Assembly (NCBI GenBank): GCA_903875605.1
Contig: CAIQWT010000017.1
Span: 1 to 64,000, forward strand
Direction of reading: 5' to 3'
Origin: an uncultured Geobacteraceae bacterium
GTDB lineage: Bacteria > Desulfobacterota > Desulfuromonadia > Geobacterales > Pseudopelobacteraceae
DNA length: 64,000 nt
The notes below the pieces were generated by a model, which saw nothing but the letters and a program-made list of their open reading frames with translations, was not told where the DNA came from and searched no databases. The position numbers and the translations under genes were made by a program. This document shows positions 13,442-54,371 of this stretch, one piece after another; the first letter of the stretch is position 1; each line of letters begins with the position of its first letter.

Positions 13442-16400
13442 CTATCGGTTGTAAATTTTATAACTTACCGAAGATGACTGTTTTATGTTGCCTGCGGCAT
13501 CATACGCCTTAGCATACATGGTGTAACTGCCGTTATATGCGGCAGTTGTTGACACGCAGAATCCAAATGGAGCTGCTGTTATGGTTTTGTTAAGTGTACC
13601 GTTCACATAGTATTCCACCTTGGTAACCCCTACATTATCGCTTACTGATACTGCTGCGCAAGTCGTTCCGCTGATCGTAGCATTAGCGGTCGGTGAGGTA
13701 ATGGCAACTGTTGGAGCAGTAGTATCGGCCACGCTATTTTTTACGGTTACATTTACCGCTGCGGATTGCTTCATATTACCCGCTGCATCATAGGCTTTGA
13801 CGGTTAACGCATACGAACCGCTGGCCACTGAGGTACTGTTCCAACTGTAGGTGTAAGGTGTTACCGTATCGGTGGCTTTCAATACACCATTTACAAAAAA
13901 CTCAACTTTACTTACCGAAACGTTATCGCTGGCGGATGCTGATATAATGACTGTGCCGCTGACCGTTGTACCGGCTGCAGGTGAAGTAATAGAGGCTGTT
14001 GGTGCAGTAACGTCGACTACGGCGTTGTTTACAGTAACCGCAACGGCTGCGGATTGACTTGAGTTGCCAGCGGCATCGTAAGCTTTGACGATTAATGATG
14101 AGGAACCGTTTGCTACTGAGGTACTGTTCCAACTATAGGTGTAAGGTGTTGCAGTGTTGGTTCCCATCAGTATGCCATTTACATAAAATTCGACCTTGCT
14201 TACCGCAATGTTATCGCTGGCGGATGCCGATATATTGACTGTGCCACTGACCGTTGCACTGGCCGCAGGTGAAGTAATCGAGGCTGTTGGTGCGGTAACG
14301 TCGGCTACGGCGTTGTTTACAGTAACCGCAACGGCTGCGGATTGTCCAATGTTGCCCGCTGCATCATAAGCCTTGGTGGTAATGGAGTAGGAACCGTTGG
14401 CAACTGATGAGCTGTTCCAACTATAGGAATAAGGTATTGCAGTGTCGGTACCCACTAGTGTGCCATTTACATAAAATTCGACTTTACTGACCGCAACGTT
14501 ATCGCTGGCGGATGCTGCAATAGCGAATGTTCCGCTTACCGTTGCACTGGCTGCAGGTGAAGTAATCGAGGCTGTTGGTGCGGTAGTGTCGACTACGGCG
14601 TTGTTCACTGTAACCGCAACTGCTGTGGATTGTCCAATGTTGCCCGCTGCATCATAAGCCTTGGTGGTAATGGAGTAGGAACCGTTGGCAACTGATGAGC
14701 TGTTCCAACTGTAAGAGTAAGGAGTCGCAGTGTCAGTACCCACCAGTGTGCCATTTGCATAAAATTCGACTTTACTGACTGCAACGTTATCGCTGGCGGA
14801 TGCTGCAATAGTGACTGTTCCGCTTACCGTTGCACTGGCTGCAGGGGAAGTGATTGAGACTGTTGGTGACGTTGTGTCAGTAGTAGAACCGCCTGTAGAT
14901 GGGATCGGTGTCGGTCCGGGTATCGTAGCATATCCACTATTTGACGACTTCTGATATGCACGGATATAGTCAATCTTCATCGGAACGGTATTAGCGGTGA
15001 TTTTGGCTATGGTCGCGCTGTCGGGATTGCCTAACCAATTGCCGCCGATGGCCAGATTGGCAAGTATGTACATTGGAGTTGAAGGAATATCTGAAACTGT
15101 GGCTGATGTGATCTGGTATTTCTGCACACCATCAAGATACCATGTGATGCTTCCAGGCTCCCAATCGATTGCATAGGTGTGGTATGCTAGGCTTAAATCA
15201 CCGGTTGTCATCACATTTTGAGATTGGCCGCTGGAAGGTCCGTGATACGACATATAGTCAGTTCCCGGTAAACCGCCGCCTATCTCCATGACATCGATTT
15301 CAGGAGGACTCCAGACTACCGGATTTTTATAGTTGTATAACCAGAAAGCAGGCCACATACCCTGACCAGATGGAATTTGTGCTCTCATTTCAAAATAACC
15401 GTACGTCTGACTGAATTTGCCATACGTGTTAATCATGCCGGAGTTGTAAAGATTGGTACTGCGCAATGATGTATTGAACTGCAAGTAACCACTTGCACCT
15501 GTATATGGAAAGGAGACCATGGAGCTTGAATAGTACTCCTGTTCACCCTGGCCGCTCGCAGATGTGCCGCCACCGGTAAATGTCGTCAGCCATTTTGAAG
15601 TATCTAGCAAAGTACCGTTGAACTCGTCCTGAAAGGTGAGCGTCCAACCGGGACCTGTTAAGAGAAGATTATTCACCGTCACGATTATATTCCCTGTCTG
15701 CCCCAAGTTTCCAGACGCATCATACGCCTTGGCGGTCAACGTGTAGCTGCCGTTTGCTACTGATGCGCTGTTCCAGTTGTAACTGTAAGGTGTCACATTG
15801 CCTGCAGAGATAAGTGCTCCGTTTATGTAAAATTCGACCTTGCTCACACCAATATTGTCGTTGGCACTTGCTACGATGGCCACTAACCCGCTCACCGTTG
15901 CGTTGTTGACAGGAGATGACAAGGAGATGACTGGAGCGGTCGTGTCTTTGAGAACTGTTACCAACACCGCGGCGGATTGCCCCACATTACCGGCAAAGTC
16001 ATACGCCTTTGTCATCAGGGAGTAGGTTCCTGCGGCGAGCGTTGAGGTGTCCCAAGAATAAATGTATGGAGTTGCTGTATCAGTGGATTGCAGAGTACCG
16101 TTTACATAAAATTCTACCTTGCTGACTCCCACGTTGTCGGTAGCCGTGGCGGTGATAGAAGTCGTGCCACTAACTGAAGCGTTAGAAGCGGGAGAAGTTA
16201 CGGAAACAACAGGAGCAACTGTATCGGCTGTTGCAGAGATATTCAGCTGTAATACATTGATTACCGGAAGCGGAGACTCCCCACGATCTGTGAGCAGATA
16301 AATACGCTGTGTGCTCGAATCATACGCGGCACCGCTGATGTTCCAATTCCACCCACCAACCGGCACGTTAAGTTCCCACGTTCTCGGAACCAGATCCCAA

Positions 16401-17416
16401 GGATTTTTTGTACCATTCTTTACCGCAATAAGATCATCTACATCGTAAGCCCATACATAGTATACGTATGGATATGCATGGTCTCCCTTATCGGCATATA
16501 TGGGATCACCGCAGTCAGTACCCGTTCCATAACACCGCGCTCCCTTGCCGTGACGACCGAAGAACAGTACTGTTTTGGTATTCTCAGGAAATACAATACC
16601 CCATATTTCGTCTTTGATAGAGACGTAGCTATTAGTGGGGCCATCATACGCTCCCAGTGTTTGATGACTCATATCGTAGTAAATAAGCGGCACGGAATTT
16701 ATAACCGTCGAAGAAGAGCCGGTCAGGTCGTCAGGATTAAAGGCAAAGGCCCCTGGTCCATAAGAAGAACGTCCGGGATTCTGTGAAGGTGCCCGCAAAA
16801 AGGTGAGTGCCTTCCCGCCGAGCGCAGCCTGGTACTCAGCCGGTATTATTGCCATTGGGCCAGCCACAAACCCTGCCTGAGGAGATGGATAGAGCTGGTA
16901 CATACCCTGAAAGTCTCCTGTCTGTGACAGCGTCAACCCAGATGAAAAGTGAGAACGTACGGCCTCGTGATTTGCATCGTAGAAACCGAAATCGGTCCCG
17001 ATGAGACGGTTATTATAGACCAGTAAACCACCAGAATTTACGGCACCATTCTGATACGCCGCACCGCCGGCAGAAATTTTATTTTTATTTCCTTCAGTAA
17101 TATCCTGAAGTCCCTGAAGCTGTACCGCTCTGTTAAGGGAATCAAGGTTGGTGCTGTTGACAACAGTCGGAATACTTATTTCCGCGACTTTCCCGTAATC
17201 GATGTGCCCCGATATAAACAGACTGTTCTTCGCAGGGTTATACGCCAGACCGGCACCGTTATACCCAAGGGTGCTTGCACTGTCGCCATTGTCTAATGGA
17301 ACCTTAAACGCACCGACATAGTTAAGATCTGAAGAGTTTATTACTTTAGTTGCCGCCACCGCACCCTGGGCCAGCAGTAACATCGGTAGTGTTAATAAAA
17401 AAATTGTCCGCTTCAT
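13442..17416 (-). CDS. Secreted multidomain protein: propeller-like N-domain, Ig-like repeats and GH16 glucanase domain
   Basis: About 1324 residues from the ATG at 17416 (AAGGAG upstream; a longer frame to 17539 would run into the leader RNA). Signal peptide MKRTIFLLTLPMLLLAQGA is followed by (1) a roughly 400-residue domain closely related to the whole protein encoded at 23234-24523, (2) two Ig-like domains (about 400-585), (3) a GH16 domain (about 590-830) with the catalytic EIDVME motif between WPAFWLY and EIGGG, and (4) five more Ig-like repeats to the end. GH16 enzymes hydrolyse or transglycosylate beta-1,3/1,4-glucans and galactans; here a role in trimming or binding the EPS matrix is inferred. 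Expression is probably controlled by the upstream riboswitch and CRP-type box. No cell-wall sorting motif is visible. Confidence 0.88.
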   Translation of the reverse strand: MKRTIFLLTLPMLLLAQGAVAATKVINSSDLNYVGAFKVPLDNGDSASTLGYNGAGLAYNPAKNSLFISGHIDYGKVAEISIPTVVNSTNLDSLNRAVQLQGLQDITEGNKNKISAGGAAYQNGAVNSGGLLVYNNRLIGTDFGFYDANHEAVRSHFSSGLTLSQTGDFQGMYQLYPSPQAGFVAGPMAIIPAEYQAALGGKALTFLRAPSQNPGRSSYGPGAFAFNPDDLTGSSSTVINSVPLIYYDMSHQTLGAYDGPTNSYVSIKDEIWGIVFPENTKTVLFFGRHGKGARCYGTGTDCGDPIYADKGDHAYPYVYYVWAYDVDDLIAVKNGTKNPWDLVPRTWELNVPVGGWNWNISGAAYDSSTQRIYLLTDRGESPLPVINVLQLNISATADTVAPVVSVTSPASNASVSGTTSITATATDNVGVSKVEFYVNGTLQSTDTATPYIYSWDTSTLAAGTYSLMTKAYDFAGNVGQSAAVLVTVLKDTTAPVISLSSPVNNATVSGLVAIVASANDNIGVSKVEFYINGALISAGNVTPYSYNWNSASVANGSYTLTAKAYDASGNLGQTGNIIVTVNNLLLTGPGWTLTFQDEFNGTLLDTSKWLTTFTGGGTSASGQGEQEYYSSSMVSFPYTGASGYLQFNTSLRSTNLYNSGMINTYGKFSQTYGYFEMRAQIPSGQGMWPAFWLYNYKNPVVWSPPEIDVMEIGGGLPGTDYMSYHGPSSGQSQNVMTTGDLSLAYHTYAIDWEPGSITWYLDGVQKYQITSATVSDIPSTPMYILANLAIGGNWLGNPDSATIAKITANTVPMKIDYIRAYQKSSNSGYATIPGPTPIPSTGGSTTDTTSPTVSITSPAASATVSGTVTIAASASDNVAVSKVEFYANGTLVGTDTATPYSYSWNSSSVANGSYSITTKAYDAAGNIGQSTAVAVTVNNAVVDTTAPTASITSPAASATVSGTFAIAASASDNVAVSKVEFYVNGTLVGTDTAIPYSYSWNSSSVANGSYSITTKAYDAAGNIGQSAAVAVTVNNAVADVTAPTASITSPAASATVSGTVNISASASDNIAVSKVEFYVNGILMGTNTATPYTYSWNSTSVANGSSSLIVKAYDAAGNSSQSAAVAVTVNNAVVDVTAPTASITSPAAGTTVSGTVIISASASDNVSVSKVEFFVNGVLKATDTVTPYTYSWNSTSVASGSYALTVKAYDAAGNMKQSAAVNVTVKNSVADTTAPTVAITSPTANATISGTTCAAVSVSDNVGVTKVEYYVNGTLNKTITAAPFGFCVSTTAAYNGSYTMYAKAYDAAGNIKQSSSVSYKIYNR
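13450..14870. repeat. Five tandem ~285-bp repeats encoding Ig-like domains
   Basis: The C-terminal half of the GH16 gene is built of five tandem units, each encoding an Ig-like domain with the pattern TAPT.SITSPAA.ATVSG, DN.AVSKVEFYVNGTL and SVANGSY...KAYDAAGN. The two most N-terminal of these units (about 14300-14870) are almost identical at DNA level over long stretches, as shown by the recurring string from the KAYDAAGNIGQS codons, which suggests recent duplication or gene conversion. Confidence 0.9.
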
Positions 17417-17568
17417 TGCGTTCTCCTTCAGTAATCGCCATAAACATGTATCATTAACCGCTGATACGGGATCTTTTACTCCGATAATTGCCTTTTCCAC
17501 TCGACTTCTCATGTTCTTCCTCCTCCTTTTGACTGTCACAATTCGCTTTCAGCACTTCGTAGCAGTGA

Positions 17569-17608
17569 CCGGTATTTTTTAGCCAAGCGCTTGACAAAAA
17601 AATACCGG
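17569..17608 (-). promoter_or_regulatory. Large leader hairpin, candidate riboswitch expression platform
   Basis: On the minus strand CCGGTATTTTTT pairs perfectly with AAAAAATACCGG, and the 16 bases between are themselves nearly palindromic (GTCAAGCGCTTGGC). The left arm GGTATTTTTTT could instead pair with AATACC at the 3' edge of the riboswitch (about 17629-17634), giving a short stem followed directly by a U-run, that is, a terminator. The two pairings exclude each other, as expected for a transcription-control switch. The switching model is inference. Confidence 0.6.
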
Positions 17609-17628
17609 ATCACCATCTACCCATTCAG

Positions 17629-17710
17629 AGGTATTTCGGCGACCCGGCTGTCTCAAGAGACCCAATGGGCTTTCCGTCCCATCCTCGCGGATGGTTTAGT
17701 ATTGTCGTCT
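17629..17710 (-). promoter_or_regulatory. GEMM-I cyclic-dinucleotide riboswitch in the leader of the GH16 gene
   Basis: Minus-strand RNA matches the GEMM-I core: ACUAAACC, a P2 stem CCAUCC capped by the GNRA loop GCGA and closed by GGAUGG, the joining sequence GGGACGGAAAGCC, a P3 stem GGGUCUC/GAGAC carrying the tetraloop receptor, and the closing GCCGGGUCGCCGAA. P1 can form from GACGAC with GUCGCC. Every conserved block is present and in order, so the class is quite certain. Aligned to the Vc2 aptamer, the base that contacts the ligand guanine (G20 in Vc2) reads A here (CAAUACUAAACC), the change that marks the cGAMP-preferring GEMM-Ib group known from Geobacter. It controls the downstream secreted GH16/Ig-like gene. 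Confidence 0.88.
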
Positions 17711-17724
17711 ACACATTCAGATTG

Positions 17725-17774
17725 TGATTGGATAATGTACCGAACGAAGCAATCCGTATGTGATTAACGTCACA
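17725..17774 (-). promoter_or_regulatory. CRP-type operator and promoter ahead of the riboswitch leader
   Basis: TGTGATTAACGTCACA at 17759-17774 is a perfect match to the CRP half-site pair TGTGA-N6-TCACA. On the minus strand a -10-like CATTAT (17732-17737) follows, which would put transcription start near 17725, with the operator centred about 41.5 bases upstream, the class II CRP position. A recognisable -35 hexamer is missing, as is usual for activator-dependent promoters. The transcript would begin just before riboswitch P1. Box seen directly; start site inferred. Confidence 0.5.
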
Positions 17775-17849
17775 GGAATGGACTATTATCAAAGGGATGG
17801 AAAAACAGACCAGCAGTGTGTAGATGCTCAGTGGGGCTGATATTTTCTG

Positions 17850-17874
17850 GTCCCTCCCCTGGGAAGGGAGGGAC
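17850..17874 (-). terminator. Strong GC hairpin after the radical SAM gene
   Basis: Perfect 9-bp inverted repeat GTCCCTCCC / GGGAGGGAC with a 7-base loop, 45 bp downstream of the radical SAM stop on the minus strand and upstream of the riboswitch promoter. There is no clear U-run, so it may slow polymerase or protect mRNA ends rather than act as a classic terminator. Confidence 0.45.
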
Positions 17875-17918
17875 ATTCATAGCTAACCAGGTCAGAGATC
17901 AGGATGACGGGTACGACA

Positions 17919-19079
17919 TTATGCAGGACAATCAATATAGCTGACTTTGGGACGTGGCGTGAAGAAGCTCTGCAGAATCTCTTTCCGACCCGGAAGCAGC
18001 GAGGTGTTAGCAGTGCTTGACTCCCCCTCAAAAGAGGGCTGACGACAGCGATAGCAGAGATTTGACGAGCAGCGATTAACGGTGGCGCGGAGCAGCAGGT
18101 ACGGCAGACTGTTCCATACTCCATGCACGGAGCGCCCTGCTCTTCCGTATGCACGCCCCATGCGACGCCAGAGAATGTGGCAGGCCCTGATATCGCCGAG
18201 TTCATTCAATGTCATATTTTTCCACGGCTTCTCGCACTTTTTCATCACCACTGTACATTGCCCGGAGTGTGACGTTACTTCCTTTGCTTTTTCGCATTGA
18301 TTGAGTTCAAAAGTACCGGTACTGAAATCCGCGGGGATACTGACTTCCACACCAAGCTCCCGGGCCACTGCACGTGATTCGCTGAACACCGAGTTGGCAG
18401 CGCTGCGGTGGTAGAACAGCTGCTTGTACTTTTGAGACTGTACATAGGGAAAAAACGGCATGACGCGAACGCGGTCTATATTCATTGACTTCGCACGGCG
18501 TATCATATCAGGCAGTTGACTTATGCTATCAGAATGGGCACAGTAGCGCCACTCCACTGGAAATGATCGCCCCTGTCGTTCCCTCTCCCCGATAACCTTT
18601 TCAATATTTTTCAGGTATGAAGACCATTTGAAACCCCGGATTTTTTCATATTCGGACTCCATGCCTTCAAGCGAGAACCCGACGACACTCACGTTCCGAA
18701 CCAGATCGCTTAGCCAACTGCTGTTTACAATCGTACCGTTAGTCGTGAGACTGATGCTGATGCCGTTCCGTTCACAATCGTTCACGACCCGGTGAAATTT
18801 TTTCGCCAGAGTAACCTCGCCATAATTCCCCCCCCCCAACGAACAGACCTCCGTGGTGGGAAAAAGTTCGGAGACGATAAGTTCATAGGTATCATCGCTC
18901 ATTTCAGTTCCGCTGGTCAGGCCATGCACGTGAACGCCGCAGTGTGTACATGCAAGGCTGCACTTTCCGATGAGGTCGAGACTGACGTTTCTAGGCTTTG
19001 AACGAAGAAACAGTGTTCCCGACTTTTGTTCTACATCATTGAGATGCCTGTTGGCTTCTTTAATCTTTTCAATATCCAT
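17919..19079 (-). CDS. Radical SAM protein with SPASM-like C-terminus, EPS-locus associated
   Basis: 386 residues. The radical SAM [4Fe-4S] motif is Cys40-x3-Cys44-x2-Cys47 in GKCSLACTHC, followed by a glycine-rich SAM-binding segment CSLGGGNYGE and LTTNGT. Near the C-terminus NLCYRCRQP plus upstream Cys residues (DIRACHILW) resemble the auxiliary cluster region of SPASM/twitch proteins, which modify peptides or sugars. It is the last gene of the EPS cluster and its 5' end overlaps the upstream glycosyltransferase gene by 11 bp, so it is co-transcribed. The substrate is unknown: a sugar intermediate or a secreted peptide are both possible. Confidence 0.82.
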   Translation of the reverse strand: MDIEKIKEANRHLNDVEQKSGTLFLRSKPRNVSLDLIGKCSLACTHCGVHVHGLTSGTEMSDDTYELIVSELFPTTEVCSLGGGNYGEVTLAKKFHRVVNDCERNGISISLTTNGTIVNSSWLSDLVRNVSVVGFSLEGMESEYEKIRGFKWSSYLKNIEKVIGERERQGRSFPVEWRYCAHSDSISQLPDMIRRAKSMNIDRVRVMPFFPYVQSQKYKQLFYHRSAANSVFSESRAVARELGVEVSIPADFSTGTFELNQCEKAKEVTSHSGQCTVVMKKCEKPWKNMTLNELGDIRACHILWRRMGRAYGRAGRSVHGVWNSLPYLLLRATVNRCSSNLCYRCRQPSFEGESSTANTSLLPGRKEILQSFFTPRPKVSYIDCPA

Positions 19080-20319
19080 AGTAGTCTCCAGTTGTGGTTA
19101 TCGGCTGATAATTGGCATCAACAGCCTTCCCGGATGTGTCAACAGTCGCCAGTAATGAATCGAGCGAGCTCAAATTTGACTGCCAGTCGTAGAATGTATC
19201 AACAGCTTTTCTGGCGTTGAGTGAAGTACTCAAACGGAGCTGAGGGTTGGTCATGAGACGGATGACCTGTCCGGCAAAAGCTTCCGGGTCATTTTCGACG
19301 AAAATATCTTTGCCGGGAGTCGCGCTGAGACCCTCGAATCCAAGGGAGGTCGTCACGACCGGTACACCCATGGCCATAGCTTCAAGAATCTTGTTCTGAA
19401 CCCCCCGGGCAATTCTCATCGGTGCTACGAATACGGAAGATTGTATGACGAAAGGGCGGACGCTTTCCACGTGACCAGTGACAATAATATTGGAATACTT
19501 CCCGGTCAACCGGCAGATATCTTTACCCGGCTTGCTTCCCACTATGTAGAATACGAGTTTTGGAATCCGCTTTAAAATGAGCGGCATTATCTGCTCTACA
19601 AAGTAGAGAACCGCTTCCACATTGGCAAAATAATCCATTGCCCCGGTAAAGACGACGGCGTGCTGGTTATACGGATCAGTCGACGGCGTAAAGGTTGAAC
19701 CGTCAACGCCGTTTGCTATGGAAACAACGGATGCACCCGGAGCGGCTAAAACTCTGAAATCCTCCGCCTCCTTTTCCGAAACAAATAAACAGTGCCGAAA
19801 TAGCCCGGAGAGCCGCCGTTCATATTTTTGAAGACGGTATGCCTCCAACTGGTAGACAAAATTCATCGGGAACTGAGAAAAATGCGAGTACTGCCGCCAT
19901 TTTTCCGAATCAACATCAACAAAATCAATAAAAACAGGGCAATTCCGGACGTAATCTACATACTGAGCCATAGAAGAGCAATATACGAAAATAAGATCAT
20001 ACCTTTCACTCCGGAGTTTCCTGTCAACCAGCGCCTTAAGTTTCCGGGAACGGAAATAGGACACTGTCAGAGGTTTCGGCGAGAATAGTCCGGCGAGAGT
20101 GCTGAGCCGAGACCTTCCTTTGGGATGATACACGACATCAACAGAGTGGCAGTACGCACCGAGTTCGCCGTTCAGTGTAAGATCTGTAACTGTGTCGGTC
20201 AGACAGACCAGCGATATCTCATGATTCCGGGACAAAAACTTGATTATGTTGAAGGAGCGAAGTTTATCGCCTTTGTCAGGAGGGTATGGGAAGCGCTGGC
20301 TCAAAAAGAGGATCTTCAT
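19069..20319 (-). CDS. GT4-type sugar transferase, PEP-CTERM/exosortase-system type
   Basis: 416 residues with the opening KILFLSQRFPYPPDKGDKLR and DFVDVDSEKWRQYS segments that characterise the sugar transferases associated with PEP-CTERM/EpsH systems (the family TIGR03087, as I recognise it). The C-terminal half has the GT-B nucleotide-sugar site: VVFTGAMDYFANVEAVLYF, FVAPMRIARGVQNKILEAMA and GVPVVTT. It would add one sugar to a lipid-linked EPS repeat at the cytoplasmic membrane face. Its ATG overlaps the stop of the preceding gene (ATGA). Donor and acceptor cannot be assigned. Confidence 0.85.
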   Translation of the reverse strand: MKILFLSQRFPYPPDKGDKLRSFNIIKFLSRNHEISLVCLTDTVTDLTLNGELGAYCHSVDVVYHPKGRSRLSTLAGLFSPKPLTVSYFRSRKLKALVDRKLRSERYDLIFVYCSSMAQYVDYVRNCPVFIDFVDVDSEKWRQYSHFSQFPMNFVYQLEAYRLQKYERRLSGLFRHCLFVSEKEAEDFRVLAAPGASVVSIANGVDGSTFTPSTDPYNQHAVVFTGAMDYFANVEAVLYFVEQIMPLILKRIPKLVFYIVGSKPGKDICRLTGKYSNIIVTGHVESVRPFVIQSSVFVAPMRIARGVQNKILEAMAMGVPVVTTSLGFEGLSATPGKDIFVENDPEAFAGQVIRLMTNPQLRLSTSLNARKAVDTFYDWQSNLSSLDSLLATVDTSGKAVDANYQPITTTGDYYGY

Positions 20320-21446
20320 GACGCATTTCCTCCGAGCAGTTCATTGTAGATGGAGGTATACTCTGCCGCCATTCTCCTGTTAGAACACTCATCCTCCACT
20401 TTCTTTCTTGCCTGGAATGCAAGACTTTCTGCAACCACCGGGTACGTCATGAGTGCACGAATCTTTCCGGCCAGCTCATGGCTGTTGCCGGGAGCAAAGA
20501 GATATCCTGTTTCTCCGTCGCTCACGAGGTTCCTATTTCCGGGAATATCCGAAACCACCACGGGAACCCCGACTGCCATTGCTTCCATGACACAACGAGG
20601 AATGCCCTCCATCCGGGAGGGAAGCACAAAGACGTCAAACGTTTTCAGGAGCGCGGTGGCATCCGCTCTAAAGCCCATGAAGTCGGTCTGCGCGGCTATG
20701 TCGAGTGTCACGGTTTCGTTGTGCAGGGCATCCTGCTCGGAACCAGCGCCAACCAGCATAAGCCTGACATCAGCCAGTTCATCAAGCAACAATCGAACGG
20801 CGTTCAAAAGAGTTGAGAGATCTTTTCGTTCGATCAGCTGCCCGATGTACCCTATCAGGTATCTTTTTTTATGTAGTCTCTCAGCCGGTGCAATTCCCTG
20901 TACTTCATCGATATCGACACCGTTGAAAATCAGTCTGAGCTTCCCGACGTTGACGTTTTTTTCGATCCCGTCCGCCAAGTCTGGGGATAGCGGGCAGACC
21001 ATATCCATGAATCTGAAGAGGTTCCTGTCGATCTTTTCATACAATTTCAATTTCCTGTTCGCTTCCAGACTCCAGCCATGGGGCGTCGTGACAATCCTGC
21101 ATCCTGCTATTCTTGCCGTCAACAGACCAACTGTATCGGATTTGAAACCGTGACTATGAAGGACGTGAAATTGATTTTTACGAGCCCACCCAGCCAGGCG
21201 TACTGGAGACAGGGGATTAAACCTGCCGCCGCACTGAAAATCAAACGCCGCCAGACCTCTTTGCCGTGCCGCAGTCACCACATCGGATTGTTTTCCGTGT
21301 GCGTCAACAAGGTTTACAAGCGTTGCATCGACCTGTCCGGGATCAAGTGCTCTCATGAGCGCCAGAATCCAGCGCTCGGCGCCATAGAGACCGGTACTGC
21401 CGATAAGATGGGCAACACGTATTTTACCGTTCAGTTTTTTTCGCAC
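20316..21446 (-). CDS. Glycosyltransferase family 4 protein
   Basis: GT-B fold enzyme. N-terminal acceptor side with HLIGSTGLYGAERWILALMR and HSHGFKSDTVG; C-terminal donor side with IGYIGQLIERKDLSTLLNAV, FVLPSRMEGIPRCVMEAMAV and GVPVVVSDIPGN, containing the E-x7-E-type motif of retaining GT4 enzymes. The frame could begin at a GTG at 21452, but the GGGAG sequence fits the second GTG at 21446 with five-base spacing. The 5' end overlaps the upstream GT gene by 23 bp, and the 3' end overlaps the next gene by 4 bp, so the three are translationally linked. Specific linkage unknown. Confidence 0.85.
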   Translation of the reverse strand: MRKKLNGKIRVAHLIGSTGLYGAERWILALMRALDPGQVDATLVNLVDAHGKQSDVVTAARQRGLAAFDFQCGGRFNPLSPVRLAGWARKNQFHVLHSHGFKSDTVGLLTARIAGCRIVTTPHGWSLEANRKLKLYEKIDRNLFRFMDMVCPLSPDLADGIEKNVNVGKLRLIFNGVDIDEVQGIAPAERLHKKRYLIGYIGQLIERKDLSTLLNAVRLLLDELADVRLMLVGAGSEQDALHNETVTLDIAAQTDFMGFRADATALLKTFDVFVLPSRMEGIPRCVMEAMAVGVPVVVSDIPGNRNLVSDGETGYLFAPGNSHELAGKIRALMTYPVVAESLAFQARKKVEDECSNRRMAAEYTSIYNELLGGNAS

Positions 21447-22578
21447 AGCCACTCCCGGCAGCCTGATAGAGCTGGTGGTATTTTTTAAGAATGTGATCCA
21501 TGGAAAATTTTTCCCGTACCCTCACAGCTCCGGACTTCCCCATACTGCTGCGCAGTCCGGAGTCGCCCAGTAATCGGCACAATCCGGCGGTCAGACCGCT
21601 GACATCACCAACGTCAAATAAAAGCCCACTTTCCCCATCAAGCACCAGCTCCGGATTACCGCCGGTCCTGGTGGCCAGTACCGTCCGCCCGGCAGACATA
21701 GCCTCGAGAATAGTCATGGAGGCGGCCTCGGTGATTGATGGCAGCACAAACAGGTCACATGCCAAAAGCAATTCGTCAATATCTCTGCGACTGCCGAGCA
21801 GACTGACTCTGCCTTGAAGGTTCAGGTCAGCGACAAGTTTTTCCAACTCCTGCTGATATGTGTTGTTTCCACCACCGACGATCCAAAGACGGGCTTGCGG
21901 AAACTGGGTGGCAACCGGAGCAAAGGCCCGGATGAGCGTGCCAAAATCTTTGATCGGATCCATGCGCCCGATACTCAGGACAAGTAGATCTTTTTCCTGA
22001 AGCTGGAGTGAACTCCGCACCGCTTCCCATACGAGCCTGTTCCCCCCAACGGTATCTAACCAGATACCGTTGTATATGACCTCAATACGTCCTGCCGGCA
22101 TTTTTTCGAAAGAGACCAGACTTTGCCTGGTAAACTCTGAAACCCCGGTATATGCTGCCGTTACCAGCGTCAAAAGCTGGTTTAATACGGCACGTTTGGG
22201 GCGGAGATGATCTGGATAGTGCCGGCCATGTTCTGTTAAAATTACTGATTTTCTCCCGTTCAGCAGAGAAGCGCACGCAGCATAAAAATAGGGGGTATAC
22301 TGATGAGCGTGCATCAGATGAATTTTTCTCGTTCGGCAAATATGCCGCAATTGACCAACAAGATTGAAGTCCACTCCCGGCCGGCGCTGTAACACATCAA
22401 CGTCATACCCTTCATCAATCAGATCCTGACCGAATTCTCCCAGCGTATCGAGGCAACAGACCGACGTGCTGAAATAGTCATTATTACAGGAACGTACCAG
22501 GTCGCAGACGACACGTTCCGTGCCACCGATAACGAGACTATGCACTACCTGCAGAATATGGATCTTGTCAGCTTGCAT
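21424..22578 (-). CDS. Glycosyltransferase family 4 protein, exosortase-system type
   Basis: 384 residues, a GT-B enzyme with the start IHILQVVHSLVIGGTERVV and the acceptor-domain motif HAHQYTPYFYA seen in PEP-CTERM-associated sugar transferases. The donor half has LSIGRMDPIKDFGTLIRAFA, FVLPSITEAASMTILEAMSA and GRTVLATRTGGNPE. It transfers a sugar from an activated donor to the growing EPS unit. It lies 8 bp after the acyltransferase gene; the ribosome site is weak, suggesting coupling to upstream translation. Confidence 0.85.
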   Translation of the reverse strand: MQADKIHILQVVHSLVIGGTERVVCDLVRSCNNDYFSTSVCCLDTLGEFGQDLIDEGYDVDVLQRRPGVDFNLVGQLRHICRTRKIHLMHAHQYTPYFYAACASLLNGRKSVILTEHGRHYPDHLRPKRAVLNQLLTLVTAAYTGVSEFTRQSLVSFEKMPAGRIEVIYNGIWLDTVGGNRLVWEAVRSSLQLQEKDLLVLSIGRMDPIKDFGTLIRAFAPVATQFPQARLWIVGGGNNTYQQELEKLVADLNLQGRVSLLGSRRDIDELLLACDLFVLPSITEAASMTILEAMSAGRTVLATRTGGNPELVLDGESGLLFDVGDVSGLTAGLCRLLGDSGLRSSMGKSGAVRVREKFSMDHILKKYHQLYQAAGSGCAKKTER

Positions 22579-22586
22579 TTGAGTAG

Positions 22587-23186
22587 TTAGCCCTTGTGTT
22601 CTGTCTCGACTCTTTTTTTAAGAATCCTGGCCGGATTACCCCCGACGATACTCAGCGGTTCAACATTATTGATGACAACACTGCCGGCGGCAATGATGCT
22701 TTTTTTTCCGACATCCGCCATGACAACCGAACTGTTCCCCAGCCACGAATCTTCACCGATAGATATTTTTTGCAGCTTCCCCCCCTGCTCTCTCACCGGA
22801 ATATCGATGTAGTCAAAATTGTGCTGATTCTTCCCGCTGATTATGTCCACGTTACTACCAATCAGCACATCATCTCCGATCATGCACTCCCCTATGCAGC
22901 AGTTGGTACCTATATAGACCCTCCGACCGATCTCAATGTTCCGCTGGTTGAGTCTGGTACCAAACTCGATGCAACAATCATCCGAACATTTGGCTAGCGC
23001 AACCCGGTAAAACTGCTGACGGAGGTAATTGCCAGGAAGACCCGGTATAAGACTCAGTAACTGTGAGCAGCCTTGAAATGGCTGGTCGCTCTTTATGAAA
23101 ATCTCGCCACCACGCATGACTGCATAGAGAGGCAGTACAAGGAGAAGCGCAGTCGTTTTTACAACGTTCTTGATAATTTCTTTCAT
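22587..23186 (-). CDS. Hexapeptide-repeat acyltransferase
   Basis: 199 residues. A short N-terminal hydrophobic segment (TTALLLVLPLYAVM) may tether it to the membrane. The rest is a left-handed beta-helix acyltransferase: IEIGRRVYIGTNCCIGECMI, DDVLIGSNVDIISG, and the C-terminal IGEDSWLGNSSVVMADVGKK and PARILKK typical of the LacA/VatD group. His in KNQHNF is the likely catalytic base. In this cluster it most probably O- or N-acetylates a sugar of the polymer. It is followed 8 bp later by a GT4 gene. Confidence 0.82.
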   Translation of the reverse strand: MKEIIKNVVKTTALLLVLPLYAVMRGGEIFIKSDQPFQGCSQLLSLIPGLPGNYLRQQFYRVALAKCSDDCCIEFGTRLNQRNIEIGRRVYIGTNCCIGECMIGDDVLIGSNVDIISGKNQHNFDYIDIPVREQGGKLQKISIGEDSWLGNSSVVMADVGKKSIIAAGSVVINNVEPLSIVGGNPARILKKRVETEHKG

Positions 23187-23233
23187 GGCAGTACAATCCT
23201 TAGTTCACATGCTGATGCACCTAGCGGATATTT

Positions 23234-24523
23234 TCACAACAAGACCTGTAATACATGAATAACCGGCAGATTCCCCTCGCCATGATCCTGTGATATGAAA
23301 ATTCGCTGGCGAGCAGGATCATATGCCGCCCCAAGGATATTCCTACCTCCTGTCTGAAAGGGGAGTTCGTAGGTCCATACTGAGTACGGTGAAATATCCC
23401 ACGGTTTTTTTGTGCCATTCTTTACTAACAGCATATCGGTTGCATCATAGGCCCACACCTGGTGCACGTACGGATATCCGTGAGTTCCCTTGCTGTCATC
23501 AGCAGGATCATAGCAGTATCCGGAGCCACCGTTTACGGCCGGTTTTCCCACAAGAGCGGCATCAGACGTACCTGTCCCATAACAGCAGTTCAAACCGTGC
23601 CGACCAAAGAACAGGACGCTCCTACTACCCTCCGGAAAGACCACTCCAGTAATTTTAGTCGTCTGATTTGCGTACGGGTTGGCAGTGCTGAAGTCACCTA
23701 TGGTCCGGTGATCAGGAGGGTAATAGACAAGGGGAGAAGCGGCGATATCAACCGTAAAATCGACTTCATTGGGATTAAAGACAAATGCTGCCGGTCCAAG
23801 GGAGGTTCGCGAAATAATAGAGAGATTGCTGTTGCCAGTAATGGCACTTCCGCCAAATTCAGCCTGCCATTCGCCAGGAATTTTACTCATGTACCCGGAT
23901 ATATACCCTGCCTGAGGTGCAGGCGGGACGCCTATCCGTTTCATGCCGCTGAATTCGGCTCCATTTTTGCTCCAATCGGCGTTAGCGGTGAAATGAGTGT
24001 TGTAAGCCTGATGCGAACCGTCATAATATGCATATGCAGACGCCAGCAACCTGTTTCCGGTCAGCAATAATCCACCCAACTGCCCGCCATTTTCTATGTA
24101 CGCTCCACCAACACCTAGATTGCCGATTTTTCCATGCGTCAGATCGGTAAAATTCTGGCGTATCGTCGCAGTATTTAGAGCTCCGAGATTATTACTGCGA
24201 ACTAGAGCAGGAACATTAATCTCTGCCAACCACTGGTTGTGCCTGTGCCCAACCACGTACAGACTGTTATTGACCGCGTTATAGGCGATCGGGCCGCCTC
24301 CATAATGAAATGAGCATTTAGTGTCATTGGGGCAGCCATAATTCCCGTCAGGAACTCGAAACGCTCCCAGATATTCTATATTCGACTTCTGCAGCAATTT
24401 TTGCCTGCTTCCGCTCAACCGCTCTGAGACATCAGCCGCTGAAGATAGCACAGCCAGAAAGAGCGTTATAATCAGCGCGAGGCCCATCATCATTAGATAT
24501 ATTCCGACTTTTACGGTTCCCAT
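23234..24523 (-). CDS. Secreted propeller-like protein, paralogue of the GH16 protein N-domain
   Basis: 429 residues from the ATG at 24523 (AGGAGAGG upstream; the longer frame to 24556 begins inside the previous gene). An N-terminal hydrophobic segment (YLMMMGLALIITLFLAVLSS) is a signal or anchor. The rest aligns along its length with the first 400 residues of the GH16/Ig protein at 13442-17416: YLGAFRVP against YVGAFKVP, VLFFGRHG in both, YPYVHQVWAYDATDMLLVKN against YPYVYYVWAYDVDDLIAVKN, and GAAYDPARQRIF against GAAYDSSTQRIY. The recurring strand-like repeats suggest a beta-propeller, but the family is not one I can name. It has two adjacent CC (NCCYGTGT). It lies inside the EPS operon 19 bp after the ligase gene. 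Confidence 0.75.
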   Translation of the reverse strand: MGTVKVGIYLMMMGLALIITLFLAVLSSAADVSERLSGSRQKLLQKSNIEYLGAFRVPDGNYGCPNDTKCSFHYGGGPIAYNAVNNSLYVVGHRHNQWLAEINVPALVRSNNLGALNTATIRQNFTDLTHGKIGNLGVGGAYIENGGQLGGLLLTGNRLLASAYAYYDGSHQAYNTHFTANADWSKNGAEFSGMKRIGVPPAPQAGYISGYMSKIPGEWQAEFGGSAITGNSNLSIISRTSLGPAAFVFNPNEVDFTVDIAASPLVYYPPDHRTIGDFSTANPYANQTTKITGVVFPEGSRSVLFFGRHGLNCCYGTGTSDAALVGKPAVNGGSGYCYDPADDSKGTHGYPYVHQVWAYDATDMLLVKNGTKKPWDISPYSVWTYELPFQTGGRNILGAAYDPARQRIFISQDHGEGNLPVIHVLQVLL

Positions 24524-24542
24524 GCTTCCTCTCCTATCCCGG

Positions 24543-25844
24543 TCAGGCCTCCACAAACGGTTTGCTTATCATTACAAACAGGGCGTTACTTATCAGCAAT
24601 AAAAAATAATAGATTTCGTAGGTATTTAGACTCAGAAACAGTGAACAGACTGTCAAACCGGCAAAAGATAATGTACACGCATCGTTATAGTGACCGATGC
24701 GTGAGCTAATGATATTTTTGCTGTTTTCACTACACCACACTCTGATTCTTTTAGAGTTACGGAAGAACAGATAGACAATGACCAGATAGCAAATACCGGC
24801 TCCGACGCCTGATTCTGCGGCAAACTGCATAAAAGTATTATGGGCGACACGTGGAGAGGACTCGATAAAATCTGGCAGAGCGGTAATATACGATCCCAAA
24901 CCTACGCCTATCAACGGATGAGACTCCATAATTCTCAGACCGCCTTTCCATGCGGTCAGTCGCATTTCTGCGGAGGTCTCACTCTCGTATTCCGAAATAG
25001 TATCCGCCCTCTCTTTCATGACGCTGCCCGCTTGCCATTGATAGAAGAGTACGAATAGAATGATAAGCGGAATTGCCATAAACTTATGTTTTGTCCGGTA
25101 AAATCCAAGCAGAACAAGCACACAGAGACCGACTAAGCCACCTCGGGAACCGGTCAGAAAAACTGCATGACACCCCAGCGGAATCAGGCACCATAGAAGG
25201 TATTTAAGATAATTCTGTTTGATTTCATGGCCCAAATAATAGATAAACGGCAGACCGGTCACAAAGAGCATGGCGAAGGTATTTTCATCCCGGTAGATAG
25301 AACTGCCATTAACACTTTCCGGTCCCATGAGACGCCCCATGTTGAACTGTTCCCAGTTACTGTTCAGATACTGGCTATTGGCCCAATAAATAAGATATCC
25401 GGCAGAGATGATCATTATAATGCCGAGATATGATACTTTTTTTAGGTCATTGATGATAAGGGAGGCACAAAAATAGAACAGAAATATGCTGTTCGTTATC
25501 GAAAAGAGCTGATCCGGACTGAGTACATAGGAATCAAATTTGGCAACATACGGTCCGAAATAGTACGAAAGGGAGATACAAAGCCACAACAGGGCGAGCC
25601 AGAGGTTCTGTTTTGTTTTAAGGAAGGAGAAGTCGTAGTTATTCTGCCCGATCTGCAGCGCAATACCGCCAAGTGTAAAGACGGCTACCCAGAGAGACGC
25701 CCGCAGACCGTCGAAGTGCCACCACCATATGTACTGAGGGCCGAGAATTGCGAGCAGATAATATGCCATTATTCCAATCCATGGCTTGACAAGCGAGGAT
25801 GCAGTCGTTGAGAAGAACGTTGAATAGAATAGTATTGTTCCCAT
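24543..25844 (-). CDS. O-antigen ligase/polymerase-like membrane protein, exosortase-associated
   Basis: 433 residues with about ten hydrophobic segments. The start, with GIMAYYLLAILGPQYIWWW, and the large periplasmic loop containing TAWKGGLRIMESHPLIGVGL and HNTFMQFAAESG are features of the Wzy/WaaL superfamily and specifically of the exosortase A-associated putative O-glycosylation ligases (TIGR03097 as I recognise it). It would polymerise or transfer the lipid-linked glycan on the periplasmic side, possibly to PEP-CTERM proteins. A good ribosome site (AGGTAGGA) precedes the ATG. It is co-directional with the GT2 gene 14 bp upstream. Confidence 0.87.
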   Translation of the reverse strand: MGTILFYSTFFSTTASSLVKPWIGIMAYYLLAILGPQYIWWWHFDGLRASLWVAVFTLGGIALQIGQNNYDFSFLKTKQNLWLALLWLCISLSYYFGPYVAKFDSYVLSPDQLFSITNSIFLFYFCASLIINDLKKVSYLGIIMIISAGYLIYWANSQYLNSNWEQFNMGRLMGPESVNGSSIYRDENTFAMLFVTGLPFIYYLGHEIKQNYLKYLLWCLIPLGCHAVFLTGSRGGLVGLCVLVLLGFYRTKHKFMAIPLIILFVLFYQWQAGSVMKERADTISEYESETSAEMRLTAWKGGLRIMESHPLIGVGLGSYITALPDFIESSPRVAHNTFMQFAAESGVGAGICYLVIVYLFFRNSKRIRVWCSENSKNIISSRIGHYNDACTLSFAGLTVCSLFLSLNTYEIYYFLLLISNALFVMISKPFVEA

Positions 25845-25858
25845 GTTTTTCCTACCTT

Positions 25859-28290: not shown

Positions 28291-29625
28291 TCATTTACCG
28301 ACCTTTAGCTCGACAAATTCGTCAGCTCCTGCATTCACCTTTCCGCCGGACGGTCTTGGGGCTCCATCAATGTCCGTGGATACTAAAGCCGATGACGCAG
28401 TATCGATTATGACCTTGGCGCGAATATCAGGGGTATCGACTAGATGGAGATTGCCGGAAGGAGCATCGACAAAAATGTCTGTATTCGCACTAAGATAGTT
28501 ACCGCTTCGGTGGCAGGTACCGCCATCTCTGGTAGAAATCGGTGCATCTGACAGGTTGTTCCTGGCTTCTGCACCAAAAGTATTGAAGCGATATTCAATG
28601 CTATTGGTGACATTATTATTAGTAAGTATCGTATTGTGGTATACCGCAGAAGTTGGTGAATTCCAAACTAGAATGGATGCATCGGAATTTGCCCCACGGT
28701 ACTCGCTCATAAGATTCGGTGCAAGATAGACAAAATTGTTACGTATTACACCACCATAATGGTCGAATCCGCCTACATCCTGAAGACCGTAGGCAATGGA
28801 CCTGTCAACATTAATGAAAACATTATTTTCTGTAACCGTATTTTTTGAATGGTTCCAGACAAGTACTGCGGGATTCCATAAATAGTCGGCGGAATCAGGA
28901 GTATGAAGATTTTTGAATAGATTCCCCCTGATCTTCCAACCATCAACGGCATGGGCGCTAATACCATTGGTGTACCCTATCTTACCTGCATGGTGTGGCG
29001 TTCCATTCGTATATTCAAACCATGAGTATTCAATTATTCCGTTTTTAACACCAATACCATTGGCTGCGTCAGTAGGGTTTGATTTGATAAACTGCGAACC
29101 TGCATCCAATAGCTTCACGCTATAGACATGAGGAGATTGTGTACCGGCGTTGAACACTACTTCATTTTCGTAGGTCTCACGAATGGTCAGATGCGCTATG
29201 GTAGTATGCACTGAATTTGACCAGATACCGTATAGAACATTTCCGTAGTTTGCACTGTCCATGCCCTTTCCTACCAGTACAACGTCGTCACAGCCTGAAA
29301 CCCCTCTGATGGTTACGTCATCTTTATTATTAATATATATAGAGCCAGTTAGATTGTATCTGCCATTGGCAAGAACAATTGTGTCTCCAGACTGAAGAGA
29401 TGAAATAGCCGACTGAAGCTGAGCTTCAGTTTTAACATGTACGATGCGAATCCCGGTTATCGGTAACGCGCTAACATTACAGGCAGAACCATGTAGCAAA
29501 CCATCGGTTGACTCCAGATGAATTCGTGCATCCGTAGCAAGTAAGTTTCCTGTTTTTTGGACAGCAGAGCATGCTGGAATACAAATACAGATAATTAGTG
29601 ATGAAATCAGATATTTTACTGTCAT
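28291..29625 (-). CDS. Right-handed beta-helix lipoprotein, polysaccharide lyase-like
   Basis: 444 residues. The N-terminus is a signal with a lipobox-like IPAC (Cys19), so it is probably lipid-anchored. The domain begins with the pattern of PL6/pectate-lyase-like proteins: VHVKTEAQLQSAISSLQSGD, TIVLANGRYNLTG and DDVTIRGVSG, then successive short strands rich in Asn and His (HAGKIGYTNGIS, NHSKNTVTENNVF) to a C-terminal NAGADEF. These proteins bind or cleave acidic polysaccharides by beta-elimination. Because the EPS probably contains uronic acids, an EPS-trimming lyase is plausible. It is transcribed away from the PEP-CTERM gene and the two share a 206-bp control region. Confidence 0.78.
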   Translation of the reverse strand: MTVKYLISSLIICICIPACSAVQKTGNLLATDARIHLESTDGLLHGSACNVSALPITGIRIVHVKTEAQLQSAISSLQSGDTIVLANGRYNLTGSIYINNKDDVTIRGVSGCDDVVLVGKGMDSANYGNVLYGIWSNSVHTTIAHLTIRETYENEVVFNAGTQSPHVYSVKLLDAGSQFIKSNPTDAANGIGVKNGIIEYSWFEYTNGTPHHAGKIGYTNGISAHAVDGWKIRGNLFKNLHTPDSADYLWNPAVLVWNHSKNTVTENNVFINVDRSIAYGLQDVGGFDHYGGVIRNNFVYLAPNLMSEYRGANSDASILVWNSPTSAVYHNTILTNNNVTNSIEYRFNTFGAEARNNLSDAPISTRDGGTCHRSGNYLSANTDIFVDAPSGNLHLVDTPDIRAKVIIDTASSALVSTDIDGAPRPSGGKVNAGADEFVELKVGK

Positions 29626-29768: not shown

Positions 29769-29784
29769 TGGCATTACAATTGCT
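29769..29784 (+). promoter_or_regulatory. Sigma-54 (-24/-12) promoter of the PEP-CTERM gene
   Basis: TGGCATTACAATTGCT matches the consensus TGGCAC-N5-TTGC(A/T) at all but one position, with exact spacing and both invariant GG and GC pairs. Transcription would start near 29796, about 36 bp before the ATG at 29832 and just ahead of its AAGGAGG ribosome site. This links PEP-CTERM expression to RpoN and an enhancer-binding protein, as known for PrsK/PrsR-controlled PEP-CTERM genes. Confidence 0.82.
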
Positions 29785-29831
29785 TTTAGTCAAGCCAAGA
29801 TTTAAAACTTTGCTTCAAGGAGGCCGGGAAC

Positions 29832-34935: not shown

Positions 34936-34966
34936 TATAAGCCACACGATTCTGTCATAGTTATAT

Positions 34967-35908
34967 TCATACACATGATCGTTTACCTCCAAAAAATGCC
35001 AACCCGCGAGCCAGAAAATAGACGTTCAGCAAGGCATACAATTGGGCTACTCGGAGCAGGTCAGTCTTTGTACGATTTTTCCGGAAGCTCGAAACTAGCA
35101 GCAGAACCTGCCACGCCATGAAGGCAATGACTACCACCAGATACATGTCATGTCTAATCAATGGCAACCCCACCGTAGCTGCGGCGAGCAACAGGCAGTG
35201 GGCTGGTGGAGCGATGAGACTGGGAATCTCTGCCATAACAATCCCGTGCTGTATCACTCCTTTGACATTGCTGATACCGCGCCAGCGCTCTTTACTAAAA
35301 AAATGTCGTACCGTAGCGGCTTCACCGTGATGAACGGCAATTATGGCGCTGTCATTCATCATCTGCCCGATTCTCTTTAACCGGAGTGATAGGTCATAAT
35401 CTTCACAGGTAATCAGATTTTCGTCAAATCCGCCGCAGGTAATAAAGGCATCCCGCCGCACGAACATATTCATTGATTCAAGCCAATTGGTCTCACCGAC
35501 TGACAAACTTTTTCTGCGCACCTCAAACCAGGCTTTCTGAACCCAGGTTGCATTTTCCGGGACAACTGGCGGGCTACCAAAACTGACTACATCCGGACGA
35601 GACATATAATGCGCCGCCTCACTGAGCCACTCCGCAGCTACGGTACAGTCGGCATCAAGAAAAGCCAGAATACCGCCGGAAGCCTGTCCCGCCCCAAAAT
35701 TTCTGAGTCCGGAAATTGTAAGTTCCGGCTTAACATAAACCGCAACACCGTGTAGACGTGCGATCTCGACAGTTCCATCGGTGGAGCCATTGTCGATAAC
35801 AATCACTTCATACCGACTGCTGTCCCATGCCACACTCTCGATCGAGTCGAGGCACCTGCCGATGTTGGCAGCTTCGTTTTTTGCCGGGATTATGATTGAA
35901 AATTGCAT
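34967..35908 (-). CDS. Glycosyltransferase family 2 protein with C-terminal membrane segments
   Basis: 313 residues. GT-A domain with FSIIIPAKNEAANIGRCLDS, VIVIDNGSTDGT, the metal-binding DADC in ILAFLDADCTV and a TCEDYDLSLRLKRI segment. Two hydrophobic stretches near the C-terminus (LIAPPAHCLLLAAATVGLPL and MYLVVVIAFMAWQVLLLVSS) suggest membrane attachment. Inverting sugar transfer onto a lipid-linked intermediate is likely. Its start overlaps the preceding gene by 19 bp. Confidence 0.86.
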   Translation of the reverse strand: MQFSIIIPAKNEAANIGRCLDSIESVAWDSSRYEVIVIDNGSTDGTVEIARLHGVAVYVKPELTISGLRNFGAGQASGGILAFLDADCTVAAEWLSEAAHYMSRPDVVSFGSPPVVPENATWVQKAWFEVRRKSLSVGETNWLESMNMFVRRDAFITCGGFDENLITCEDYDLSLRLKRIGQMMNDSAIIAVHHGEAATVRHFFSKERWRGISNVKGVIQHGIVMAEIPSLIAPPAHCLLLAAATVGLPLIRHDMYLVVVIAFMAWQVLLLVSSFRKNRTKTDLLRVAQLYALLNVYFLARGLAFFGGKRSCV

Positions 35909-48437: not shown

Positions 48438-48450
48438 AAATGCTTTCGTA

Positions 48451-54368: not shown

Positions 54369-54371
54369 CAC

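Follow-up and report, generated by a model that had tools for sequence, protein, structure and literature searches.

A predicted beta-propeller domain outside the named families, present twice in a Geobacteraceae exopolysaccharide locus, is a candidate matrix binder associated with likely depolymerases

The window, a 64,000-nucleotide stretch from an uncultured Geobacteraceae bacterium, carries an exopolysaccharide (EPS) cluster whose genes discussed here all lie on the minus strand. P0001 (23234..24523), a protein of 429 amino acids with an ATG start and a hydrophobic N terminus, is encoded in a compact run, 17919-27941, where nine minus-strand genes follow one another at intergenic distances between -29 and +47 bases. 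Nineteen bases separate it from the adjoining gene for a Wzy/O-antigen-ligase-like membrane protein (24543..25844). Its downstream neighbor is a hexapeptide-type acetyltransferase (22587..23186), and three GT4-type glycosyltransferases belong to the same run (19069..22578; coordinates 19069, 20316, and 21424); all of these neighbors were named by eye. A beta-helix protein of 444 amino acids is encoded at 28291..29625; at other loci, its homologues lie next to the propeller or form one protein with it. A PcRGLX-like (exo-rhamnogalacturonan-lyase-like) protein at 30465..33056, matching Pfam models PF21345 and PF19501 above the cut-off, is a candidate further depolymerase of the cluster.

The remaining cluster genes comprise an asparagine-synthase-like amidotransferase of XrtA/EPS loci (33061..34992; TIGR03108, E value 8.7e-192, below the curated cut-off), the PEP-CTERM two-component system PrsR and PrsK (47061..50514; TIGR02915 and TIGR02916, above the cut-off), and an exosortase (53526..54371; PF09721, E value 4.4e-70). 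Together with the glycosyltransferases, this gene set resembles the XrtA/PEP-CTERM EPS loci described in an earlier report (PMC1569441). Unlike the sorting substrates of such loci, the two propeller proteins lack a PEP-CTERM-like tail when the C termini are inspected by eye, and no PEP-CTERM model was found among their NCBIfam matches. The domain had been placed beside exosortase genes; it does share the EPS cluster with the exosortase, but about 29 kb separates that gene from the nearer propeller copy. Shared sigma-54 regulation was discarded as an explanation, since 38 site matches against 35.7 expected amount to no signal.

The second copy of the propeller domain (16223..17416) forms the N-terminal part of P0002 (13442..17416), a fusion protein with the order propeller, two Big_7 Ig-like domains, GH16, and five Big_7 Ig-like domains, the order of the Big_7 copies being read from the sequence. 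The probable start is the ATG at 17416, with the reading frame open upstream to a GTG at 17539, and the protein ends at 13442. P0001 and the first ~400 amino acids of P0002 share 163 of 395 aligned positions (41% identity; BLASTP E value 7e-90), which excludes chance likeness. The alignment spans the whole length, as originally predicted, and VLFFGRHG and the other two motifs named in that prediction occur in both proteins. The fusion to Ig-like and GH16 modules was likewise borne out by Pfam, with Big_7 detected in seven stretches (E value 1.8e-146) and the GH16 domain at 14945..15634 (PF00722, E value 1.3e-25). The latter retains an intact E-I-D-V-M-E motif at residues 707-712, which we take to be the GH16 catalytic motif. 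These two copies are the ones present in the source assembly (109 contigs totaling 3.58 Mb; completeness of 99%), and a search of the whole assembly returned no third copy at an E value of ≤1.

The structure of P0001 was predicted with AlphaFold2 as an all-beta propeller with high confidence (pLDDT 92.1, pTM 0.89), in agreement with the earlier guess of this fold. The best VIA matches listed were YjiK, glutaminyl cyclases, staphylococcal phage baseplate proteins, and GH43/GH130 enzymes, which from their names are presumably propeller proteins. Foldseek superpositions were poor overall, with TM-scores of at most 0.40 by query length among the matches listed, and a viral structure library gave general matches only. 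Neither the PL22/24/25 propeller lyases nor Bap1 appeared among the structural matches listed. In our reading of the DSSP strand line, rather than of the coordinates, the propeller would have five blades: residues 77-126, 148-197, and 212-266 for blades 1 to 3, residues 290-385 with extra strands for blade 4, and residues 396-427 for blade 5, which is closed by the N-terminal strand 49-56.

The impression that this was no nameable family also held. The propeller domain gave no significant match in Pfam, NCBIfam, PHROG, or PDB sequences; P0001 itself matched no Pfam or NCBIfam model, and among 18 scanned family members, including both window copies, unrelated models from these two collections matched single members only. 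P0001 alone produced two chance-level matches to PDB sequences (E values of 0.09 and 0.22), and homology to a solved structure was not found with profiles A1 and A3. No description of this propeller domain was found in the literature as judged by titles and the beginnings of abstracts.

The family is rare and patchy within the phylum (15 of 395 genomes), and 33 propeller loci were collected from 29 genomes of many phyla. An association with EPS loci, predicted on the basis of the exosortase, was recovered in the close subfamily, where all five sampled carrier genomes had an exosortase (one by a weak match), but not in the distant subfamily (1 of 10 carrier genomes) or at the level of the locus, where an exosortase gene lay inside 1 of the 33 fetched propeller loci. 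The genome-level tally covers the sampled carriers, apart from 25 reached solely through a separate search. One carrier with an exosortase locus is Desulforhabdus sp. TSK (L052). Conversely, the propeller was found in 6 of 158 sampled exosortase genomes. Glycosyltransferases lay beside the propeller in 10/33 loci compared with 0/20 control stretches (p = 0.008), and acetyltransferase homologues in 6/33 compared with 0/20. When exosortase, PrsK, amidotransferase, Wzy-like protein, and acetyltransferase were counted together, a count in which the PrsK and amidotransferase probes were unspecific, no difference was seen (9/33 loci versus 4/20 controls). PrsK and PrsR were useless as neighborhood markers (1/33 and 0/33 loci versus 3/20 and 2/20 controls). 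In general, the EPS link of the propeller family is real but partial.

GH16 was not a recurrent neighbor: it was found in none of the 33 propeller loci, and its fusion to the propeller was seen in the window only. Instead, the recurrent partner was the beta-helix protein, encoded beside the propeller in 10/33 loci compared with 0/20 control stretches (p = 0.008). Both domains occurred in one open reading frame in four loci (L007, L031, L049, and L050) and were adjacent in others. The beta-helix was present in 5/15 propeller genomes and 6/380 other genomes (p = 1.6e-5); with the query genome dropped, 4/14 propeller genomes carried it (p = 2e-4). Twenty of 43 propeller genomes had no beta-helix match. 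Coevolution was only weakly indicated by the paired distances of the two partners (Mantel r = 0.27, p = 0.06, n = 12); substituting the other window copy gave r = 0.23 (p = 0.08), and adding G348 gave r = 0.19 (p = 0.14). The propeller was also fused to a dockerin (L047) and within a protein of 4009 amino acids, and one locus (L033) had TIG/DUF11/CARDB partner modules, which lack a sugar link.

The model of the beta-helix protein is a right-handed beta-helix that matched the alginate lyase PsAly (6kfn) with a Z score of 30.2 over 268 residues and Vibrio cholerae RbmB with a VIA Z score of 27.2; phage tailspikes and a surface adhesin matched nearly as well (Z scores of 27-29). Whole-sequence profile comparison gave E values of 1e-4 to 6kfn and 9e-6 to BcAlyPL6, and the single-stretch matches had values of 0.007 and 0.05, respectively. 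In a weak HMM alignment, the catalytic Tyr184 of PsAly corresponded to the conserved Y218 of the beta-helix family and its catalytic Lys221 to the conserved Trp257, so that the Tyr/Lys pair is incomplete. The beta-helix protein is likely an EPS-cutting enzyme.

In several unrelated microbes, the propeller is joined in one protein with, or encoded next to, a probable EPS-cutting enzyme, and it therefore probably grips the cell's own EPS. A comparable arrangement is known from V. cholerae, in which the Bap1/RbmC propeller binds the matrix EPS and the beta-helix lyase RbmB cuts the same EPS (PMC10102183, PMC11637428, PMC11695861). By analogy, the propeller may anchor depolymerases on the cluster's own polymer; the model of the window's beta-helix protein resembles RbmB. 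The differences are that the Bap1/RbmC propellers have eight blades according to PMC10102183, compared with five by strand count here, and that Bap1/RbmC carry adhesion domains, whereas the window-type propeller is fused to depolymerases. The GH16 fusion P0002 has a counterpart in prmQ, a GH16 gene inside the Sphingomonas promonan EPS cluster whose product has a predicted export signal and whose deletion alters colony texture; unlike for P0002, the word "propeller" is absent from the accessible text of that paper (PMC11340318). With modest confidence, we favor a five-bladed, probably secreted propeller that binds the EPS of its own cluster. In P0002 and the beta-helix fusions, it would keep the depolymerase on the matrix polymer; stand-alone P0001 would coat or cross-link the polymer or sit at the cell surface.

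The propeller could instead be an EPS-degrading or -modifying enzyme itself, from a new lyase or glycosidase family, and the fusions would then pair two enzymes. GH43 and GH130 propeller enzymes are five-bladed, as the fold predicted here is by strand count, and they were among its structural matches (Z scores of ~14-16). In the close subfamily, S241, Y315, D339, H348, and Y352 are unchanged and D127, D363, D402, and E101 are kept in 89-94% of members; judged by sequence, D339, H348, Y315, and Y352 could be a catalytic site. Unlike in GH43/GH130, however, no family model matched the propeller: P0001 and the propeller parts of its relatives hit no CAZyme model in Pfam or NCBIfam. In terms of sequence conservation, D402 is the only one of the conserved acids kept at ≥85% in both subfamilies, and E101, the sole conserved Glu, falls to 78% in the distant one. 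We regard an enzymatic propeller as unlikely, though a serious competitor to polymer binding. The aromatics conserved in the close subfamily (Y167, Y315, Y350, Y352, W357, W375, and W383) would suit sugar binding.

The short distance between P0001 and the Wzy-like gene raises another explanation, in which the stand-alone propeller would work in the periplasm as an assembly factor, together with its neighbor, in EPS polymerization, export, or surface ligation. Of 147 relatives, 4 carried the propeller, and precisely these 4 had a strong counterpart of the window's Wzy-like gene. L028 and L035 have the two genes side by side, and in G041 they stand two genes apart. Further afield, Wzy-like matches occurred in 5/29 close-subfamily genomes, 0/10 distant-subfamily genomes, and 4/121 controls. 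The 24 close-subfamily genomes without a match, together with the fusions to GH16, beta-helix, dockerin, and the 4009-residue protein, which an assembly role leaves unexplained, make this reading improbable. Even less probable is a reading of the propeller as a generic secreted module for adhesion or protein interaction, with no polysaccharide ligand and only occasional recruitment to EPS loci. It would accommodate the wide spread, the varied partners, the distant subfamily mostly without exosortase, and a combined EPS-marker count no higher than in controls, but not the enrichment of glycosyltransferases and beta-helix proteins beside the propeller.

To our knowledge, there are few EPS types for which the proteins that recognize and cleave the producer's own matrix are well understood. 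If the family binds its cluster's EPS, it would offer a sequence handle on the matrix-binding proteins of exosortase-type EPS loci, and these binders would come paired with candidate depolymerases usable for mapping or dissolving such matrices. The propeller/beta-helix link also allows either partner to help in finding the other outside EPS loci. More tentatively, the propeller may be part of a mobile cassette, reading one EPS and traveling with its polymerase and a matching beta-helix depolymerase, fused or adjacent, through many bacterial phyla and perhaps an archaeon. Searches of 72,556 plasmid and 50,697 phage records gave no match to the propeller, leaving a plasmid or phage origin unsupported. 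A recent duplication inside the window was not supported, as the tree pairs P0001 with a Myxococcales copy (L036) rather than with the P0002 copy (support of 100/98, from a bootstrap that had not settled). The two propeller copies of another genome, G055, were close sisters in the same tree.

The stand-alone propeller protein (23234-24523, minus strand; 429 residues) and the first 400 residues of the GH16 fusion protein (13442-17416, minus strand) were aligned over their whole length, as the original prediction had claimed, with 41% identity across 395 columns (E = 7e-90) and all three of its quoted motifs present in both. In the fusion protein, the propeller is followed by seven Big_7 Ig-like domains, interrupted by a GH16 domain whose E-I-D-V-M-E motif is intact. 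Only these two copies were found in a whole-genome search of the window's assembly. The stand-alone gene is one of a tightly packed run of nine genes on the minus strand (17919-27941), flanked by a Wzy-like gene (24543-25844, minus strand) and an acetyltransferase gene (22587-23186, minus strand); the fusion gene comes 502 bases after this run. The EPS cluster contains PrsK, PrsR, an exosortase (53526-54371, minus strand), and a TIGR03108-like amidotransferase; genes without a family-model assignment were named by eye. In the window, the exosortase gene overlaps a separate ORF that looks EpsI-like by eye (52897-54371, minus strand), whereas in genome G055 a single ORF of 512 residues takes their place. 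A small protein (29769-30374, plus strand) ends in a PEP-CTERM-like tail (by eye), and a sigma-54-like site with one mismatch lies 47 bases before the start of its gene; no excess of such sites was seen within the window.

The expectation that the domain has no nameable family held. The stand-alone protein had no match in Pfam (E ≤ 1), NCBIfam, or PHROGs (E ≤ 0.1), and in a scan of 18 members, the two window copies among them, Pfam and NCBIfam each matched one member with unrelated models (best E = 3e-4). The suspected beta-propeller fold was recovered by structure prediction on the stand-alone protein (AF2, 33-row alignment; pLDDT 92.1, pTM 0.89). Five blades are predicted from the DSSP line, in which blade three has short strands, blade four has extra strands, and closure is by the N-terminal strand 49-56. 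The best match listed by VIA-align was YjiK (3qqz; Z 18.9, 233 aligned, 3.4 Å); further best rows were glutaminyl cyclases (Z 18.8, 17.4, and 16.8), a staphylococcal phage baseplate protein (16.3), GH43 (16.2), and GH130 enzymes (about 15), with 5-12% identity across the rows listed. The Foldseek superpositions listed were poor (query TM-scores of 0.40 or less, rmsd of 7 Å or more).

At E ≤ 1e-5, and with the window's genome counted, the propeller was present in 4 of the 147 nearest relatives, and a sample of 395 genomes from the phylum had 15 carriers; these and all later genome counts ignore shared ancestry. A GTDB contig scan yielded 33 loci from 29 genomes; four of these loci (L029, L032, L035, and L052) hold the same genes as previously found ones. 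The hosts were labeled Nitrospirae, Deltaproteobacteria, Acidobacteria, Verrucomicrobia, candidate-phylum bacteria, Bacillota, Actinomycetes, Proteobacteria, and others, including one possibly misbinned Woesearchaeota bin. Most propeller loci are metagenome contigs, many of them cut short. The tree was divided into two well-separated clades, close and distant. A profile of close members only retrieved ten distant ORFs (E = 2e-32 to 9e-40) and a fragment (4e-15), and the two are therefore one family. S241, Y315, D339, H348, and Y352 were invariant in 36 of 36 close-clade rows, and E101, D127, D363, and D402 were present in 89-94%; of these nine residues, only Y315 and D402 were fixed in the nine distant rows. 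Several members have unusual forms. One gene (G417:C19:63684-64855) falls into a pair of overlapping ORFs that lie in different frames; a damaged copy or a sequencing error is the probable explanation. In a 4,009-residue Acidobacteria protein (L055:4304-16333), the propeller lies among repeats of HYR/Ig-like appearance (by eye). A dockerin type I domain forms the C-terminus of two candidate-phylum members (L047:9920-11281, above the Pfam cut-off; L059:7160-9697, by similarity), whose genomes measure only 0.6-0.8 Mb.

Four ORFs combine the propeller with a beta-helix, the same one each time. The propeller leads in L007 (G055) and the beta-helix in L031 and L049 (both Acidobacteria); in L050, beta-helix and propeller are followed by a polysaccharide-lyase-like stretch below Pfam's cut-off. 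Since both domain orders occur, at least two fusion events are suggested. In the window, the beta-helix is a separate gene (28291-29625, minus strand; 444 residues), 61% identical to the fused beta-helix of G055. Where the two are separate genes on one strand, the gap is 9 bases in L030 and 70 in L045, and in L060, L051, L044, L041, G348, and G449 they are adjacent, overlapping as called, or less than 1 kb apart; some ORF starts in these pairs are uncertain. The beta-helix was detected at E ≤ 1e-5 in 23 of 43 propeller genomes. Among the 395 sampled genomes it occurred in 11, namely, 5 of 15 with the propeller versus 6 of 380 without (P = 1.6e-5; 4 of 14 and P = 2e-4 with the window's genome left out), and in two of the five co-carriers (G193 and G352) it lay on a different contig.

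The comparison set for the 33 loci (433 kb) was small, with 20 control stretches of 1 to 20 kb that total 311 kb and come from 15 carrier genomes. The beta-helix and a GT4 glycosyltransferase were each found in 10 loci versus no control (P = 0.008), the acetyltransferase in 6 versus 0 (P = 0.07), the Wzy-like gene in 5 versus 0 (P = 0.14), the amidotransferase in 6 versus 1, PrsK in 1 versus 3, and PrsR in 0 versus 2. A combined index (exosortase, PrsK, amidotransferase, Wzy-like, or acetyltransferase) did not differ (9 of 33 versus 4 of 20). GH16, a neighbor named in the original prediction, was found in none of the 33 loci or 20 controls. The proposed exosortase association stood in the close clade, with all five of its genomes in the 395-genome sample positive (one weakly, 1.5e-7) versus 153 of 390 others (P = 0.0099; 0.025 with the window's genome left out), but not in the distant clade (1 of 10) or the loci (1 of 33 versus 0 of 20). 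The propeller was present in 6 of 158 exosortase genomes and is therefore an optional accessory. The sharpest EPS link is co-occurrence with the Wzy-like gene among the window's relatives: of 147 genomes, the 4 propeller carriers, from four genera, and no others have this gene at E < 1e-100, with weak matches near 1e-21 in two further genomes. This link weakens further from the relatives (5 of 29 close-clade genomes, 0 of 10 distant ones, and 4 of 121 domain-less exosortase genomes, the 121 being out of 152). The co-occurrence is most simply explained by joint transfer of a single EPS cluster; thus, it marks the propeller as part of that cluster and does not indicate its function.

The beta-helix model (pLDDT 77, core above 90) resembled the PsAly alginate lyase (6kfn; Z 30.2) and RbmB, a lyase of VPS (Z 27.2), but epimerases, phage tailspikes, and an adhesin also matched at Z 27-30. 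Over the whole chain, a 15-row profile matched BcAlyPL6 (E = 9e-6) and 6kfn (1e-4), with single stretches of both never below 0.007; two pilus proteins matched at 3e-4. The catalytic Tyr184 of PsAly aligned with the conserved Y218, but Lys221, also catalytic, aligned with a conserved Trp. The fold is predicted to be lyase-like and the protein is a candidate lyase only. A PcRGLX-like protein (30465-33056, minus strand) had homologues in 4 of 33 loci versus 0 of 20 controls and is therefore possibly a further recurrent depolymerase.

The propeller is probably a sugar-binding module for the EPS of its own locus, with putative binder and candidate cutter joined in one protein in some cases. The closest worked-out parallel to the pair is Bap1/RbmC with RbmB in Vibrio cholerae. 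Bap1 and RbmC are described as having in common a propeller of eight blades with direct binding to VPS (PMC10102183), and RbmB as cleaving VPS and remodeling cell-matrix contact (PMC11637428, PMC11695861). Judged by strand count only, the propeller here is not of the Bap1 type; the likeness lies in how it would work, not in membership. An EPS-cluster GH16 protein of Sphingomonas, PrmQ, is reported to matter for colony texture (PMC11340318).

A short C-terminal tail of the type P..P(T/S).(L/V).(V/A) closes both the propeller and its beta-helix neighbor in L051 (8473-11098) and L060 (8342-11191), and was also seen in L039:900-2195, L053:471-1811, L056:9971-11842, and window 17919-19049. No FN3 continuation was seen past the stop codon of tailed ORFs. 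The tail, a pattern picked after seeing examples, closed 8 of 38 propeller or beta-helix ORFs (including L045, a doubtful match) versus 6 of 689 others (P = 6e-8) and is possibly a sorting tag.
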